A stretch of DNA of 64,000 nucleotides from Gammaproteobacteria bacterium (GTDB taxonomy: Bacteria > Pseudomonadota > Gammaproteobacteria > Xanthomonadales > SZUA-36), in contig JAJFLB010000023.1 in assembly GCA_021772915.1 (NCBI GenBank), positions 124,001-188,000 of the forward strand. The letters are read 5' to 3'. The translations under genes were made by a program, and so were the position numbers. Shown here piece after piece: positions 17,374-29,426 of the stretch. Below the pieces are notes generated by a model. The model made no database searches and was not told the origin of the DNA. It saw only the letters and a list, made by a program, of their open reading frames with translations. Every line of letters starts with the position of its first letter. Within the stretch, counting starts at the first letter, position 1.

Positions 17374-17500
17374 CTTAGAGACAGGATGTTTTGCCGAGAG
17401 CAAGGCGCACGAAAAGATTTCGGAGCGACGCGTACACGCAGTACGTGAGCTTCGTAATCTTGAGTGCAACGCAGCTATCGGTGAAACAGACATCTCTAAG
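17374..17500. mobile_element. hairpin element between atpD and atpC
   Basis: A 127-bp imperfect palindrome. The ends CTTAGAGA and TCTCTAAG pair, and the arms continue for about 35 bases with mismatches. The middle contains GCAAGGCGCACG, CGCAGTACGTGAG and CAACGCAGCTATCG, a signature I believe recurs as a dispersed repeat in many gammaproteobacterial genomes. The right arm runs through the atpD stop codon (CTA at 17496-17498, TAG on the minus strand). No protein is encoded. It looks like a small non-autonomous element; transcription of atpC must pass through it. Confidence 0.6.
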
Positions 17501-18890
17501 CCGCCTCTTTCTTCGCCATTTCCTCACCCTTGGCAACGGCTTCTTCGATGCCGCCGACCATGTAGAACGCCTGCTCGGGCAGATTATCGTACTCACCCTC
17601 GATAATGCCCTTGAAGGCGCGAATGGTGTCTTTCAAGGTGACGTACTTACCCGGTGAACCGGTGAATGTTTCTGCAACAAAGAAGGGCTGGGACAGGAAA
17701 CGTGCGACTTTACGTGCACGTGCAACCACCTGCTTGTCCTCTTCGGACAGTTCGTCCATACCGAGGATTGCGATGATGTCCTTGAGCTCTTTATACCGCT
17801 GCAATACGCCCTGCACGCCGCGGGCAACGTCGTAGTGCTCCTGGCCAATCAGGTTCGGGTCCAGCAAACGCGAGGTGGAATCCAGCGGATCCACAGCCGG
17901 GTAAATGCCCTGCTCTGCAACCGCACGGCTCAATACCAGGGTCGCATCGAGATGCGCAAAAGTGGTTGCCGGGGACGGATCGGTCAAGTCATCTGCAGGT
18001 ACATATACCGCCTGAAATGACGTGATTGAACCGGTCTTGGTGGTCGTGATGCGCTCTTGCAACAAACCCATTTCGAGCGCCAGTGTTGGCTGGTAACCTA
18101 CTGCTGAAGGCATACGGCCCAGCAGCGCAGACACTTCTGTTCCCGCCAGCGTGTAGCGATAGATGTTATCAATGAACATCAATACATCGTTACCCTGGTC
18201 ACGGAATTCTTCGGCCATGGTCAAACCGGTCAAGGCAACCCGCAAACGGTTACCCGGTGGCTCGTTCATCTGGCCATAGACCAGTGACACTTTGCTGAGT
18301 ACATCGGCGTCTTTCATTTCGTGGTAAAAGTCGTTGCCCTCACGCGTACGCTCGCCCACACCGGCAAATACCGAGAAACCCGAATGCTCGATGGCGATGT
18401 TACGGATCAGTTCCATCAGCGTTACGGTTTTACCAACACCCGCACCACCGAACAGACCAACTTTACCACCCCTGGCGATCGGCATGATCAGGTCGATAAC
18501 CTTGATACCGGTCTCAAGTACATCATTGCCACCCGCCTGCTCTTCGTATGAAGGCGGCTTGCGGTGAATCGGCATGTGTTTTTCCGCACCGATGGGACCG
18601 GCTTCATCGATTGGCCTGCCAAGTACGTCCATTACCCGGCCCAGGGTCTTCTCACCCACGGGCACGGAAATGGCGGCACCGGTATTGGTGACTGGTAATC
18701 CACGCTTCAGTCCATCGGTTGAACCCAGTGCAATACAACGCACCACGCCGTCACCGAGTTGCTGCTGTACTTCCAGCACGATATCGGTGTCGTCAACGTT
18801 TAATGCGTTGAAAACCCTGGGCATCGCGTCACGCGCGAACTCAACGTCCACGACGGCACCGATTACCTGAACAATTGATCCAGCACTCAT
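17496..18890 (-). CDS. atpD: F1 ATP synthase beta subunit
   Basis: The catalytic beta subunit of F1, 464 residues. Walker A is [14 protein letters not shown] (about 150-163); the GERTREGND segment with the catalytic Glu, the ALTGLTMAE segment and the DELSEEDK region that interacts with gamma are all intact. The Walker B strand is [11 protein letters not shown]. There are no deletions. It is transcribed from atpG into atpC, with an inverted-repeat element overlapping its stop codon. Confidence 0.98.
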
Positions 18891-18922
18891 ACCTTTAGCT
18901 CCTAATATGCCGATGGCCTGCC

Positions 18923-19786
18923 CTAAACGGCAGCCGCACCACCGACGATTTCTGAAATTTCCTGTGTGATCGCCGCCTGCCGGGCCTTGTTGTAGACCAG
19001 GTTCAGCTCATCGATCAGATCACTTGCGTTGTCCGTGGCACTCTTCATCGCGATCATGCGCGCGGCATGTTCGGATGCGAGGTTTTCCAGCACCCCCTGG
19101 TATACCAGGGCCTCGATATAACGGGTCATGACACTGTCCAGCAGTGTCTCGGCGTCCGGCTCATAGATGTAGTCCCAGATATCCCGGACTTCTTCATCAT
19201 CGGTCGGTGGCAGCGGCAGCAACTGCGCCAGCACCGGTTCTTGTACCATCGTATTGACGAAATTGTTATGGGCCAGGAATACACGATCGACTTCCCGATC
19301 CCGGTAGGCTTCCAACATGGCCGTGATGGTACCGATCAGGTCTTCAATCTGCGGGTTTTCACCCAGGCCGGTGGCCACGGCTGTGACCTCAACTTTTACA
19401 TTTTTGAAATAGGCAATGGCCTTCTTACCCAATGCAACCAGGCTGACATCTGCACCTTTTTGTTGCCACTCGCCCATGTCGGCCAGCATTTTCTTGAACA
19501 GGTTGTTGTTCAAACCACCGCACAAACCGCGGTCACTTGAAATCACGATATAACCGACTTTCTTGACCTCCGGGTGCTTGATGGTGAACGGGTGGCGGTA
19601 TTCCGGGTTGGCCTTGCCAAGATGGCCGATCACACGTTTCATCATGCGTGCGTAGGGCCGGCTCTCTTTCATCAAATCCTGCGATTTGCGGATTTTGCTG
19701 GCCGAGACCATCTCCAGCGCAGAGGTCACCTTCTTGGTGTTCTCCACGCTGCGGATCTTGGTGACGATCTCTCTTCCACCTGCCAT
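18923..19786 (-). CDS. atpG: F1 ATP synthase gamma subunit
   Basis: The rotating central-stalk subunit of F1, 287 residues, normal length. The N-terminal helix [19 protein letters not shown], the conserved [11 protein letters not shown] loop (about 83-93) and the C-terminal helix with [11 protein letters not shown], matching the bacterial gamma signature, are present. It lies between atpA and atpD in the standard order. Confidence 0.97.
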
Positions 19787-19805
19787 TTTCAGATTACTCC
19801 GTTAA

Positions 19806-28262: not shown

Positions 28263-28377
28263 TAATTCAGTTTCCAAAATCCGCCAATCTGCCTGGTGCC
28301 CCAACACGCAATTGAATGGCACAGTCCAGTAGCCATTGGTGCAACATGCATTTACCCATAGTATCAATTTTTTCTAG

Positions 28378-29157
28378 TTAACCGGTCTGTCTGTTTCGAT
28401 TTTTGCGCAGCACTTCACCGGCCAGACCCAGGTAAGCCAGGGCGCCGCTGGAAGCAGGATCGTACCGCAATACGGGCAAACCGTGGCTGGGGGCCTCAGC
28501 GACCCTTACATTACGTGGAATCAGGGTGCGGTAAACCCGCTCGCCAAAGTGCTCTATTAATTGTTCCGAAACCGCCCCGGATAAATTGTTTCGGCTGTCG
28601 TGCATGGTGCGCAGAAGGCCCTCTATTTCAAGCCCCGGGTTGACGCTGTTGCGTACCTGCTCAACGGTCTCAAGTAACGAGGCCAGACCCTCCAGTGCAT
28701 AGTACTCACACTGCATGGGGATCAAGATACTGTCCGCTGCCGTCAATGCATTCAGGGTCAGCATGTTTAGCGAAGGGGGGCAATCTATAATAATCCAGGC
28801 GTATTGCTGCGTTATTTTTTTCAGTGCGTTCTTCAGACGGTACTCACGTTCATCCACCTGCAAAAGATGCACCTCGGCTGCGGTCAGGTCACCATTTGAG
28901 GGCAACACATCAAATCCGAGTTTTTCGATGGGGATACTGGCCTCCGAGACCCCGCACTCACCTACGAGCACGTCATAGGCCGAGATCTCCAGTCCGCGTG
29001 CGTCTATCCCGCAACCCACAGAGGCATTGCCCTGCGGATCGAGATCGACCAGCAAAGTACGGTAATTCATGTCCGCGAGCGCAGCAACCAGATTTACGCA
29101 GGTGGTGGTCTTTCCCACACCGCCCTTCTGATTGGCCACTGCAATAACTCTTGCCAT
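28378..29157 (-). CDS. parA: chromosome partitioning ATPase ParA (Soj)
   Basis: A Walker-type ATPase that drives ParB-parS complexes over the nucleoid. It has 259 residues, typical of chromosomal ParA without an N-terminal HTH. The deviant Walker A is KGGVGKTTT (about residues 11-19), with the signature Lys; LLVDLDPQGN and WIIIDCPPSL follow. The start has AAGGAG seven bases upstream, which lies in the left end of the inverted-repeat element between parA and rsmG. ParA expression may therefore depend on sequence the element supplied. Confidence 0.97.
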   Translation of the reverse strand: MARVIAVANQKGGVGKTTTCVNLVAALADMNYRTLLVDLDPQGNASVGCGIDARGLEISAYDVLVGECGVSEASIPIEKLGFDVLPSNGDLTAAEVHLLQVDEREYRLKNALKKITQQYAWIIIDCPPSLNMLTLNALTAADSILIPMQCEYYALEGLASLLETVEQVRNSVNPGLEIEGLLRTMHDSRNNLSGAVSEQLIEHFGERVYRTLIPRNVRVAEAPSHGLPVLRYDPASSGALAYLGLAGEVLRKNRNRQTG

Positions 29158-29158
29158 T

Positions 29159-29426
29159 TAGTACTCCTTCCATGCGATAGTTGCGGATTCAGCGCTGCTG
29201 TGGGGTTTCGCAGCAAGGCGCAGTGCGCGGTGAATGGCCAGTCCTTTGCAAGCGCTGAAACGCAGCGGCGGAAGCCCACAGCGGCGCCCTGTGGGTTGGT
29301 TTGTCAGTGCCCATGGACATCGTTGCACCTCTTGCCAAGGACTTAGGCCATTACCTGCGAGCTGCGCCTTGCCATGAACACTGACAAACCAACTGCATCC
29401 GTAATTATCACATGGAAGGAGCACTA
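29159..29426. mobile_element. MITE-like element between rsmG and parA
   Basis: Imperfect 28-bp terminal inverted repeats (29159-29186 and 29399-29426, four mismatches, ends TAGTACTCCTTCC and GGAAGGAGCACTA) bound a 268-bp segment. Nested inside is a second inverted pair (about 29208-29256 and 29330-29376) with the CAAGGCGCAG motif shared with the 17374-17500 element. The last three bases form the rsmG stop codon, and the left end supplies the parA ribosome-binding site. No protein is encoded. Confidence 0.65.

Follow-up and report, generated by a model that had tools for sequence, protein, structure and literature searches.

The palindromes that separate three gene pairs of a gammaproteobacterial genome probably represent two or more unrelated families of non-autonomous mobile elements, which insert at CTAG-like (YTAR) targets, leave the upstream gene its stop codon and sometimes supply a start codon or Shine-Dalgarno sequence to the next. 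The copies, their targets and duplications, the retained stops and the donated start sequences were observed directly. The window, the whole stretch of 64,000 nucleotides that was analysed, contains the palindromes E1, E2 and E3 (Table 1), which are unrelated to one another. An earlier note had placed them in the atpD-atpC, atpB-atpE and rsmG-parA gaps with the upstream TAG at each junction of element and host, and re-reading of the junctions bore this out: each stop (atpD, atpB and rsmG, all on the minus strand) is a TA completed by the palindrome's first base. The gene names at the three loci are consistent with Pfam. E2 has perfect inverted ends of 21 nt and E3 has arms of 81 nt that are 72% complementary. 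All three fold into structures far more stable than those of shuffled sequences (z of -5.3, -9.2 and -8.4 for E1, E2 and E3, respectively).

Table 1. Coordinates of the elements, target copies and junction features within the window.
Feature	Position	Strand	Basis or remarks
E1 palindrome, CTTAGAGA..TCTCTAAG, atpD-atpC gap	17374..17500	-	sequence, copy search, fold test
Putative TA copies of E1	17376-17377 and 17497-17498
atpD stop TAG	17496..17498	-	TA + first base of E1; TAA once emptied
E2, IS1380-like MITE, ends CCCGCATATTGCACCAG..CTGGTGCAATATGCGGG	22788..23041	-	inverted ends, copies, duplication, IS comparison; 22784-23045 with target copies, in atpB-atpE gap
E2 left target copy, CTAG	22784..22787	.
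E2 right target copy, CTAA (minus strand TTAG)	23042..23045	.	contains atpB stop TAG 23042-23044
Lone E2-like end, 2 mismatches	26009..26026	+	off any stop codon
E3 MITE-like element, ends GTRCTCC..	29161..29424	-	TA at 29159-29160 and 29425-29426; 29159-29426 with flanking TA, in rsmG-parA gap
GGAAGGAG, E3 end read outward, placed as parA Shine-Dalgarno	29164..29171	-	parA ATG 29157-29155
rsmG stop TAG at E3 junction	29424..29426	-	emptied codon TAA

Gap lengths in relatives agree with the proposal of that note that E1-E3 are inserted elements. The atpB-atpE gap measures 314 nt in the window; of the 32 relatives listed, 29 have 36 to 109 nt and the remaining three -1, 329 and 473. For rsmG-parA the corresponding lengths are 266 and 4 to 34 (6/6 relatives listed). 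The atpD-atpC gap is 153 in the window and -4 to 54 in 17 of 19 nearer relatives (L065-L092), the outliers being L081 (111) and L092 (210). We call E1-E3 insertions because the gaps are short in most relatives.

Copies of E2 and E3 were found at 37 and 33 sites, respectively, in the stretches fetched from the window's own genome, although both ends were recognised at only 31 of these 70 sites. The E3 end pattern matched 63 times in this genome and its reversed control not once. With terminal inverted repeats, a length below about 400 bp, multiple copies and no transposase, E2 and E3 count as MITE-like families. E1 lacks the multicopy character of a MITE, occurring once in its own genome; the same site is occupied in one congener. 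A search for E2 on plasmids returned no match.

That the elements are instead transcribed hairpins for mRNA processing or attenuation, comparable to ERIC or REP sequences, their overlap with stops marking only tolerated places, is unlikely. The hairpins are indeed very stable and sit between operon genes, but a search for promoter-like or terminator-like signals found no excess in the region, positions 16900-29600 of the window gave no match to an Rfam family above gathering score, and most of the relatives listed lack E2 and E3 in the same gaps.

Target sites, duplications and candidate transposases

Other copies of the two mobile families in the own genome are mostly flanked by TA, as the earlier note had anticipated (43 of 55 E2 ends, 37 of 46 E3 ends). 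Of 40 E2 pairs, only 15 have TA at both ends, as have only 6 of 14 E3 pairs; the far side frequently reads TG, CA or GA instead, which counts against the explanation that we propose. At ends away from a stop codon, the outer base is C or T in 26/29 cases for E2 and 25/25 for E3. Since TTAG, CTAA and TTAA also occur as targets, the preference is for YTAR rather than strictly for CTAG.

In 10 of the 15 E2 pairs with TA at both ends the flanking 4-mers are identical (3.7 expected, p 0.0016), and the junction codon equals the codon of the emptied site at all eight resolvable sites. E2 therefore duplicates a 4-bp YTAR target with the whole stop included, and a 2-bp duplication was dropped for this family on the same two grounds. 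The two target copies in the window agree at three of four bases and differ at one. A 2-bp duplication gives the best fit for E3; a 6-bp duplication was weighed by eye on few pairs and dropped. Inspection by eye found a terminal G at every E3-like end.

Insertion at TA is the general rule for IS630/Tc1-type elements, and the earlier note had tentatively linked the palindromes to them. That E2 and E3 are both TA-duplicating MITEs of this type is, in our estimate, very unlikely. TA adjoins many ends, CTAG is favoured and the 2-bp duplication is best for E3, but the E2 duplication is 4 bp and its ends resemble IS1380. Furthermore, the own genome yielded no IS630-type DDE_3 gene (PF13358), and the 16 DDE_3 loci found in relatives (10 of 61 genomes) include no E3-like end pair (at most 6 mismatches on both sides). 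On the latter two grounds IS630 was rejected as the mobilising partner. A search for an autonomous copy in 20 stretches that surround selected single E3 ends found no long element bounded by E3 ends on both sides.

E2 instead bears a moderate resemblance to the IS1380 family (PF13701) in its end sequence (CCNCAATATTKCAT..), its YTAR target and its 4-bp duplication. An IS1380-type insertion sequence in a genome of the same family (L276) is flanked by TTAG on both sides, and each of its ends matches E2 at 12 of 17 positions; a second has the flanks CTAA and TTAG. E2 differs in having no transposase and in sharing only those 12 of 17 end bases with the insertion sequence found. PF13701 was present in 3 of 37 genomes, and no such gene was found in the own genome. 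We infer from the similar ends, targets and duplications that E2 may be mobilised by an IS1380-type transposase.

Stop codons at the junctions

A gene stop lies at the junction of 14/37 own E2 sites, 12/33 own E3 sites and 15/46 E2 sites of relatives. Weighted by the target preference of each family, the expected shares are 16.4%, 21.8% and 15.1%, respectively (p 0.0014 for own E2, 0.04 for own E3); a random noncoding TA falls on a stop in 6.5% of cases. Genes were called with our own hexamer script, E3 stops were counted in the own genome only, and the relatives' E2 set comprised 60 stretches chosen for E2 matches from roughly 80 places listed. Sites were left out of the count if every end fell within a called gene and met neither a stop nor a start (1/38 own E2, 5/38 own E3, 1/47 relatives' E2), and the E3 p of 0.04 depends on omitting those five sites, two of which, L164 and L166, have TA flanks. 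Some of the omitted E3 sites look like chance matches. The preference for stop codons suggested by the earlier note thus exceeds simple expectation; against it stands the lone E2-like end of the window.

It is possible, if somewhat unlikely, that target preference alone explains these counts, CTAG being favoured and a noncoding CTAG often being a stop. The C or T at the outer base of nearly all non-stop ends is in keeping with this, and 29% of the CTAG motifs that are noncoding or at stops in the fetched stretches are stops; measured against this share, 14/34 for E2 and 12/31 for E3 are not significant (p 0.09 and 0.16). The targets are, however, YTAR rather than strictly CTAG, and with the measured weights an excess of about 1.7- to 2.3-fold persists across the three sets. 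Moreover, 64-71% of weighted targets are coding, yet only 7 of 123 sites have all ends in a called gene, which argues that selection acts. The residual excess of stops is probably due to selection.

When the elements were removed in silico, the same codon was still a stop at all 16 stop sites with both flanks clear (26 of 42 were not resolvable), as the earlier note had predicted for empty sites. Its further proposal, that a terminal G remakes the stop, fits E3 and perhaps E1 but not E2, whose codon is unchanged under the 4-bp duplication. At three of eight resolvable E3 sites, rsmG included, the occupied codon is TAG and the emptied one TAA, one of the three (L157) depending on a weak partner end. 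The same change appears to apply to E1 in the window and at L281.

The explanation that we favour would run as follows. YTAR occurs relatively often at stops, as against the rest of the noncoding DNA. An IS1380-type transposase would move E2 with duplication of 4 bp, so that either side would receive a complete copy of a TAG or TAA stop in the target; E3 would duplicate TA only and begin with G, turning TAA or TAG into TAG, and E1 might do the same. Gene-breaking insertions would be purged, and those on a stop would persist, since the gene upstream is still properly terminated.

Start codons and Shine-Dalgarno sequences at the outward ends

Read outward, the E2 end is (GGTG)CAAT-ATG-CGG-G followed by YTAR, and the E3 end carries GGAG five bases from its edge. 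The start-codon side of the elements goes beyond the earlier note. Pairing of the E2 end with the anti-Shine-Dalgarno sequence (-5.4 kcal/mol) equals or exceeds that of 63% of 385 genes, and the duplex of the E3 end before parA (-8.3 kcal/mol) that of 95% of the same number. Where E2 inserts in phase among the opening codons of the next gene, its own ATG would replace the start that is lost, and the outward GGAG of E3 would be a ready Shine-Dalgarno sequence.

At L253, E2 separates tsf, whose product is EF-Ts (Pfam), from pyrH. Here tsf runs up to the element, where it closes with GGT GGC TAA; the ATG of the element opens pyrH, in which no further ATG, GTG or TTG occurs before residue 47. In 13 of 29 compared genomes, including that of the window, the two genes overlap, with tsf stopping equally far from pyrH; tsf ends GGT GGC TAA AAC AAC in the own genome and GGT GGC TAA AGC CAC in the emptied L253 site. 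As judged from sequence, a single insertion has kept the tsf stop and supplied a new in-frame start to pyrH. The element ATG is likewise the only plausible start in pyrH and in proS of the own genome, where the element-encoded M-Q-A-S aligns at residue 1 with the M-R-T-S of a solved ProRS. A BolA-type gene (L218) is a further candidate.

We consider it improbable that the donated starts are annotation artefacts, with weak or non-canonical codons downstream as the true starts. Among 15 candidates picked by us from own and relatives' sites, seven do have another ATG, GTG or TTG within the next 15 codons (GTG at residue 5 in sbcB, TTG at 9 in prmC), but in the other eight the next possible start is at residue 17-47. 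For pyrH, proS, the BolA-type gene and a weak ParD-like match, such a start already lies within the conserved region. Homology is compatible with either start in the DinG-, T2SS-K- and DUF2157-type genes and L216. L253 stands outside the four relatives' sites counted with a start in the end, the gene caller having run pyrH further upstream. Phase chance (one in three) and survival could yield similar numbers of start donations. The donated starts are presumably used.

More doubtful is the notion that the element is a portable intercistronic coupler, its ends pairing in the mRNA so that the E2 start or E3 Shine-Dalgarno sequence is locked against the 5' end, which begins at the upstream stop. 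A ribosome terminating at that stop would cover the 5' arm along its first dozen bases and open the stem, freeing the start or Shine-Dalgarno sequence on the 3' arm so that downstream translation stays coupled. Coupling could thereby survive an insertion of about 170-270 bp in abutting or overlapping pairs (tsf-pyrH, rsmG-parA), and tsf-pyrH offers a directly testable example of such hairpin-based coupling.

Comparison with element-free genomes reveals a route for mobile DNA into tightly packed or overlapping essential genes: the stop is preserved through the target, and a start or ribosome site comes with the end of the element. Insertion at such boundaries would let elements settle within essential gene clusters, and the starts of conserved proteins such as PyrH and ProS can be mobile-element sequence.

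Relation to known systems

Repeat-encoded stops and starts at MITE ends are already in print. We found neither stop retention with start donation at one insertion nor the target logic behind a retained stop in the portions of the open-access literature that were searched. RUP and IS630-Spn1, as described in the available text, are likewise MITE-like with a TA target (PMC2229807). No sequence or transposase link between them and E1-E3 was found.

In the available account of Streptococcus pneumoniae, BOX repeats overlap 58 CDSs, and in 36 of these the repeat end encodes the stop of the gene upstream, with no strong evidence of truncation (PMC3049150). BOX elements are thus small repeats that hold an upstream stop, as do E2 and E3, but they differ in sequence, and that account gives the stop without a target-duplication explanation (PMC3049150). 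MITEAba12 of Acinetobacter, mobilised by ISAba12, provides through its outward end the first four residues (MQQS) of a neighbouring CDS in three genomes, much as E2 begins an adjoining gene; its target duplications are 9 bp with no sequence trend, and stop retention, an empty-site comparison and an overlapping gene pair do not feature in the available description (PMC6382973). ISPsp10 (IS5 family, IS427 group) is described as likewise duplicating TA beside TAA, with a stop common to target and element, but in that case it is the stop of the transposase itself that the target completes, whereas E1-E3 keep that of a host gene (PMC4133298). Enterobacterial RU, Coxiella QMITE and Rickettsia palindromic elements are also small and lie at or in gene ends, and some alter a stop or add residues; as far as they are described, they extend or fuse genes, whereas with E2 and E3 the stop codon stays in place (PMC2759123, PMC5896051, PMC10969869).

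Three palindromes at intercistronic stop codons

The source genome (4.68 Mb, 71 contigs, 98% complete) has as its closest named relatives by AtpB gammaproteobacterial MAGs of 83-87% identity, several carrying Lysobacterales or Xanthomonadales labels. At E1, E2 and E3 alike, the outermost TAG of the palindrome is the TAG stop of the upstream gene, as the earlier note had observed. The gap spans 36-109 nt between atpB and atpE in 29 of 32 listed relatives, 4-34 nt between rsmG and parA in all six listed, and -4 to 54 between atpD and atpC in 17 of 19 nearer relatives. Among nine relatives with a resolved junction and at least 83% AtpB identity, atpB ends in TAG (five), TAA (three) or TGA (one). 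Other sequence occupies longer gaps in relatives L081, L091 and L092 (atpD-atpC, 111 and 210 nt; atpB-atpE, 473 and 329 nt), perhaps representing other insertions.

Elements and other repeats in the window
Feature	Position	Setting	Flanking genes	Gene names	Remark
E1	17374-17500	atpD-atpC gap	minus strand	Pfam	
E2	22784-23045	atpB-atpE gap	minus strand	Pfam	
E3	29159-29426	rsmG-parA gap	minus strand	Pfam	
Lone E2-like end	26009-26026	upstream of gene 24999-25949			2 mismatches; not at a stop codon; partner not found
Tandem repeats	30059-30379	adjoining rsmG start			three 107-bp copies (86% and 79% identity to first) holding CCGATGAGCTTGCTCATCGG-type palindromes
Related palindrome	39993-40046				related to those of 30059-30379
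Related palindrome	41529-41577				related to those of 30059-30379
Palindromic cluster	5498-5781				75- and 55-nt blocks in common with 16643-16837, 11 kb apart
Palindromic cluster	16643-16837				as 5498-5781
Related blocks	24803-24888				related to the two clusters
Repeat run	34931-35143				15-base spacing; perhaps encodes a repetitive peptide

Copies, target site and fate of the stop

E1 has one full copy in the source genome. A congener holds an 84%-identical copy at the same atpD-atpC junction, again with TAG, and E1 is thus an old shared insertion. E2 and E3, by contrast, form families. BLAST returned 81 pieces of E2 and 59 of E3; the E3 end pattern (up to two mismatches) matched 63 times in the source genome and its reverse not once. 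Sixty stretches were fetched and, with the window (766 kb together), scanned for element ends. Genes were called by a hexamer script that recovered most window genes and missed the ORF at 24155-24580. TA adjoined 43 of 55 E2 ends and 37 of 46 E3 ends, and the base outside it was C or T in 39/43 and 36/37 respectively, giving YTAR as the target.

Both ends were recognised at only 31 of 70 sites in the source genome, and in the source and relatives' stretches TA was kept at both ends in only 15 of 40 E2 pairs and 6 of 14 E3 pairs; either wear has altered many copies or the rule is less strict than stated. In the other 25 E2 pairs (L132, L218, L226, L228, L255, L262, L263 and others), the side or sides without TA often carry TG, CA or GA, for which decay, inexact ends and a broader target are possible causes. 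At loci L168, L171, L144 and L146, other repeat-like sequence directly follows E2 ends, perhaps as nested insertions.

The stop of the approaching gene forms the junction at 14 of 37 E2 sites and 12 of 33 E3 sites in the source genome. Among noncoding-or-stop targets in the same stretches, stops make up 6.5% for TA, 14.2% for YTAR and 29.1% for CTAG. When each possible target was weighted according to the base preference that non-stop ends show, the expected rate was 16.4% for E2 and 21.8% for E3 (excess p 0.0014 and 0.04). In a second set, E2 in 60 stretches from relatives, 15 of 46 sites lay on stops against 15.1% expected (p 0.0024). If the target is taken strictly as CTAG, the excess is not significant (p 0.09 for E2, 0.16 for E3), so that about half of the stop effect, or more, is explained by the target. 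About two thirds of the weighted targets fall in coding sequence, yet all ends lay within a called gene at only 7 of 123 sites, arguing that purifying selection shapes the set.

The earlier note had proposed that the terminal G of the element regenerates the stop. Sites were emptied in silico by fusing TA with the first base outside the far TA, which was usable at the 16 of 42 stop sites with both flanks clear. All 16 still read a stop (six E2 and eight E3 in the source genome, two E2 in relatives), an outcome likely anyway because the target is YTAR. At three of the eight E3 sites, window rsmG included, the occupied codon is TAG and the emptied one TAA (one of the three, L157, via a partner end with four mismatches), and by eye a terminal G stands at every E3-like end. 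Regeneration fits E3, and perhaps E1. At E2 the emptied and occupied codons agree in 8/8, and of the 15 pairs that keep TA on both sides, 10 have identical flanking 4-mers (3.7 expected with shuffled partners, p 0.0016), the two sets overlapping. E2 thus makes a 4-bp duplication, in which the stop is carried over whole as part of the target and not remade. The window copy has TTAG at the atpB side and CTAG at the other, one base different.

Candidate start codons at E2 ends

Read outward, the E2 end runs CTGGTGCAAT-ATG-CGG-G, then YTAR. The neighbour's start was called on this ATG at 6 of 37 source and 4 of 46 relatives' sites; among 15 candidates of our selection, eight lack another ATG, GTG or TTG in the next 15 codons. 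In the best case, locus L253, upstream tsf (PF00889) terminates GGT GGC TAA at the left E2 junction and downstream pyrH begins at the right end (M-R-V-K-A-T-Y-Q-R), its next possible start being residue 47. Aligned with solved uridylate kinases, this PyrH shows homology from residue 5 (best match) or 3 (E. coli-type chains) onward. Of the 29 genomes compared, 13 have the stop of tsf 22 nt ahead of that pyrH codon, within the pyrH start region (a GTGGCTGA-type overlap); the spacing differs in ten, and the tsf tail was not found in six. The element-free source genome reads GGT GGC TAA AAC AAC and emptied L253 GGT GGC TAA AGC CAC; the comparison indicates that a single insertion at CTAA preserved the tsf stop and replaced the pyrH start in frame.

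In the source genome, proS starts M-Q-A-S at an E2 end, residue 1 aligning to M-R-T-S of a solved ProRS. A BolA-type gene behaves likewise. Homology does not fix the start of the DinG-, T2SS-K- and DUF2157-type genes, and sbcB and prmC have an alternative start within nine residues. Anti-Shine-Dalgarno pairing ahead of the E2 ATG is -5.4 kcal/mol (genome median -4.0; the L253 pyrH copy itself, -3.8); that of E3 ahead of parA, -8.3 kcal/mol, is not exceeded by 95% of 385 genes.

Transposase, mechanism and known systems

Sound in its general idea, the interpretation in the earlier note has the wrong mechanism for E2, and its link to IS630/Tc1-type elements found no support. A search of 37 genomes for an IS1380-type gene (PF13701) detected it in three, twice above the curated cut-off; the source genome gave none. 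One of these, L276 from a same-family genome, has CCTCAATATTGCATCAA and CCGCAATATTGCATGAG as its ends and TTAG at either flank; both ends agree with the E2 end CCCGCATATTGCACCAG at 12 of 17 positions (probability 1e-4 for a random 17-mer, uncorrected for the scan). At a second locus, L279, the flanks read CTAA and TTAG. These ends and flanks suggest, with moderate confidence, that E2 is an IS1380-type MITE. For E3, no transposase partner was found in the source genome or relatives' loci. Several contigs of a relative's genome, G024, start or stop no more than about 150 bases from an E3 end (e.g. C39, 128; C18, 128; C216, 4; C294, 107), as if high-copy elements had broken the assembly, and these places could conceal an autonomous copy.

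We favour a mechanism in which the elements would transpose into YTAR, harmful insertions would be lost afterwards, and the ends would happen to hold translation punctuation: a stop inbound, a start or ribosome site outbound. Because the ends pair in RNA, the start or Shine-Dalgarno sequence would be locked unless a ribosome opened the stem; the terminating ribosome may do so, freeing either and keeping the two genes coupled. The joint stop-and-start insertion is the more surprising part of the finding.

Precedents appear in several papers. In 36 of 58 overlaps, BOX repeats encode the stop of the upstream gene (PMC3049150); in three genomes, neighbouring genes take their first four residues from MITEAba12 (PMC6382973); and ISPsp10 ends its own gene via a TAA target (PMC4133298). 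Bacterial MITEs are described as usually having TA at their ends (PMC5896051), and RUP has a TA target and a link to IS630 (PMC2229807). Beyond these, the case described here contributes the target logic, element-free genomes, and one insertion serving both stop and start.
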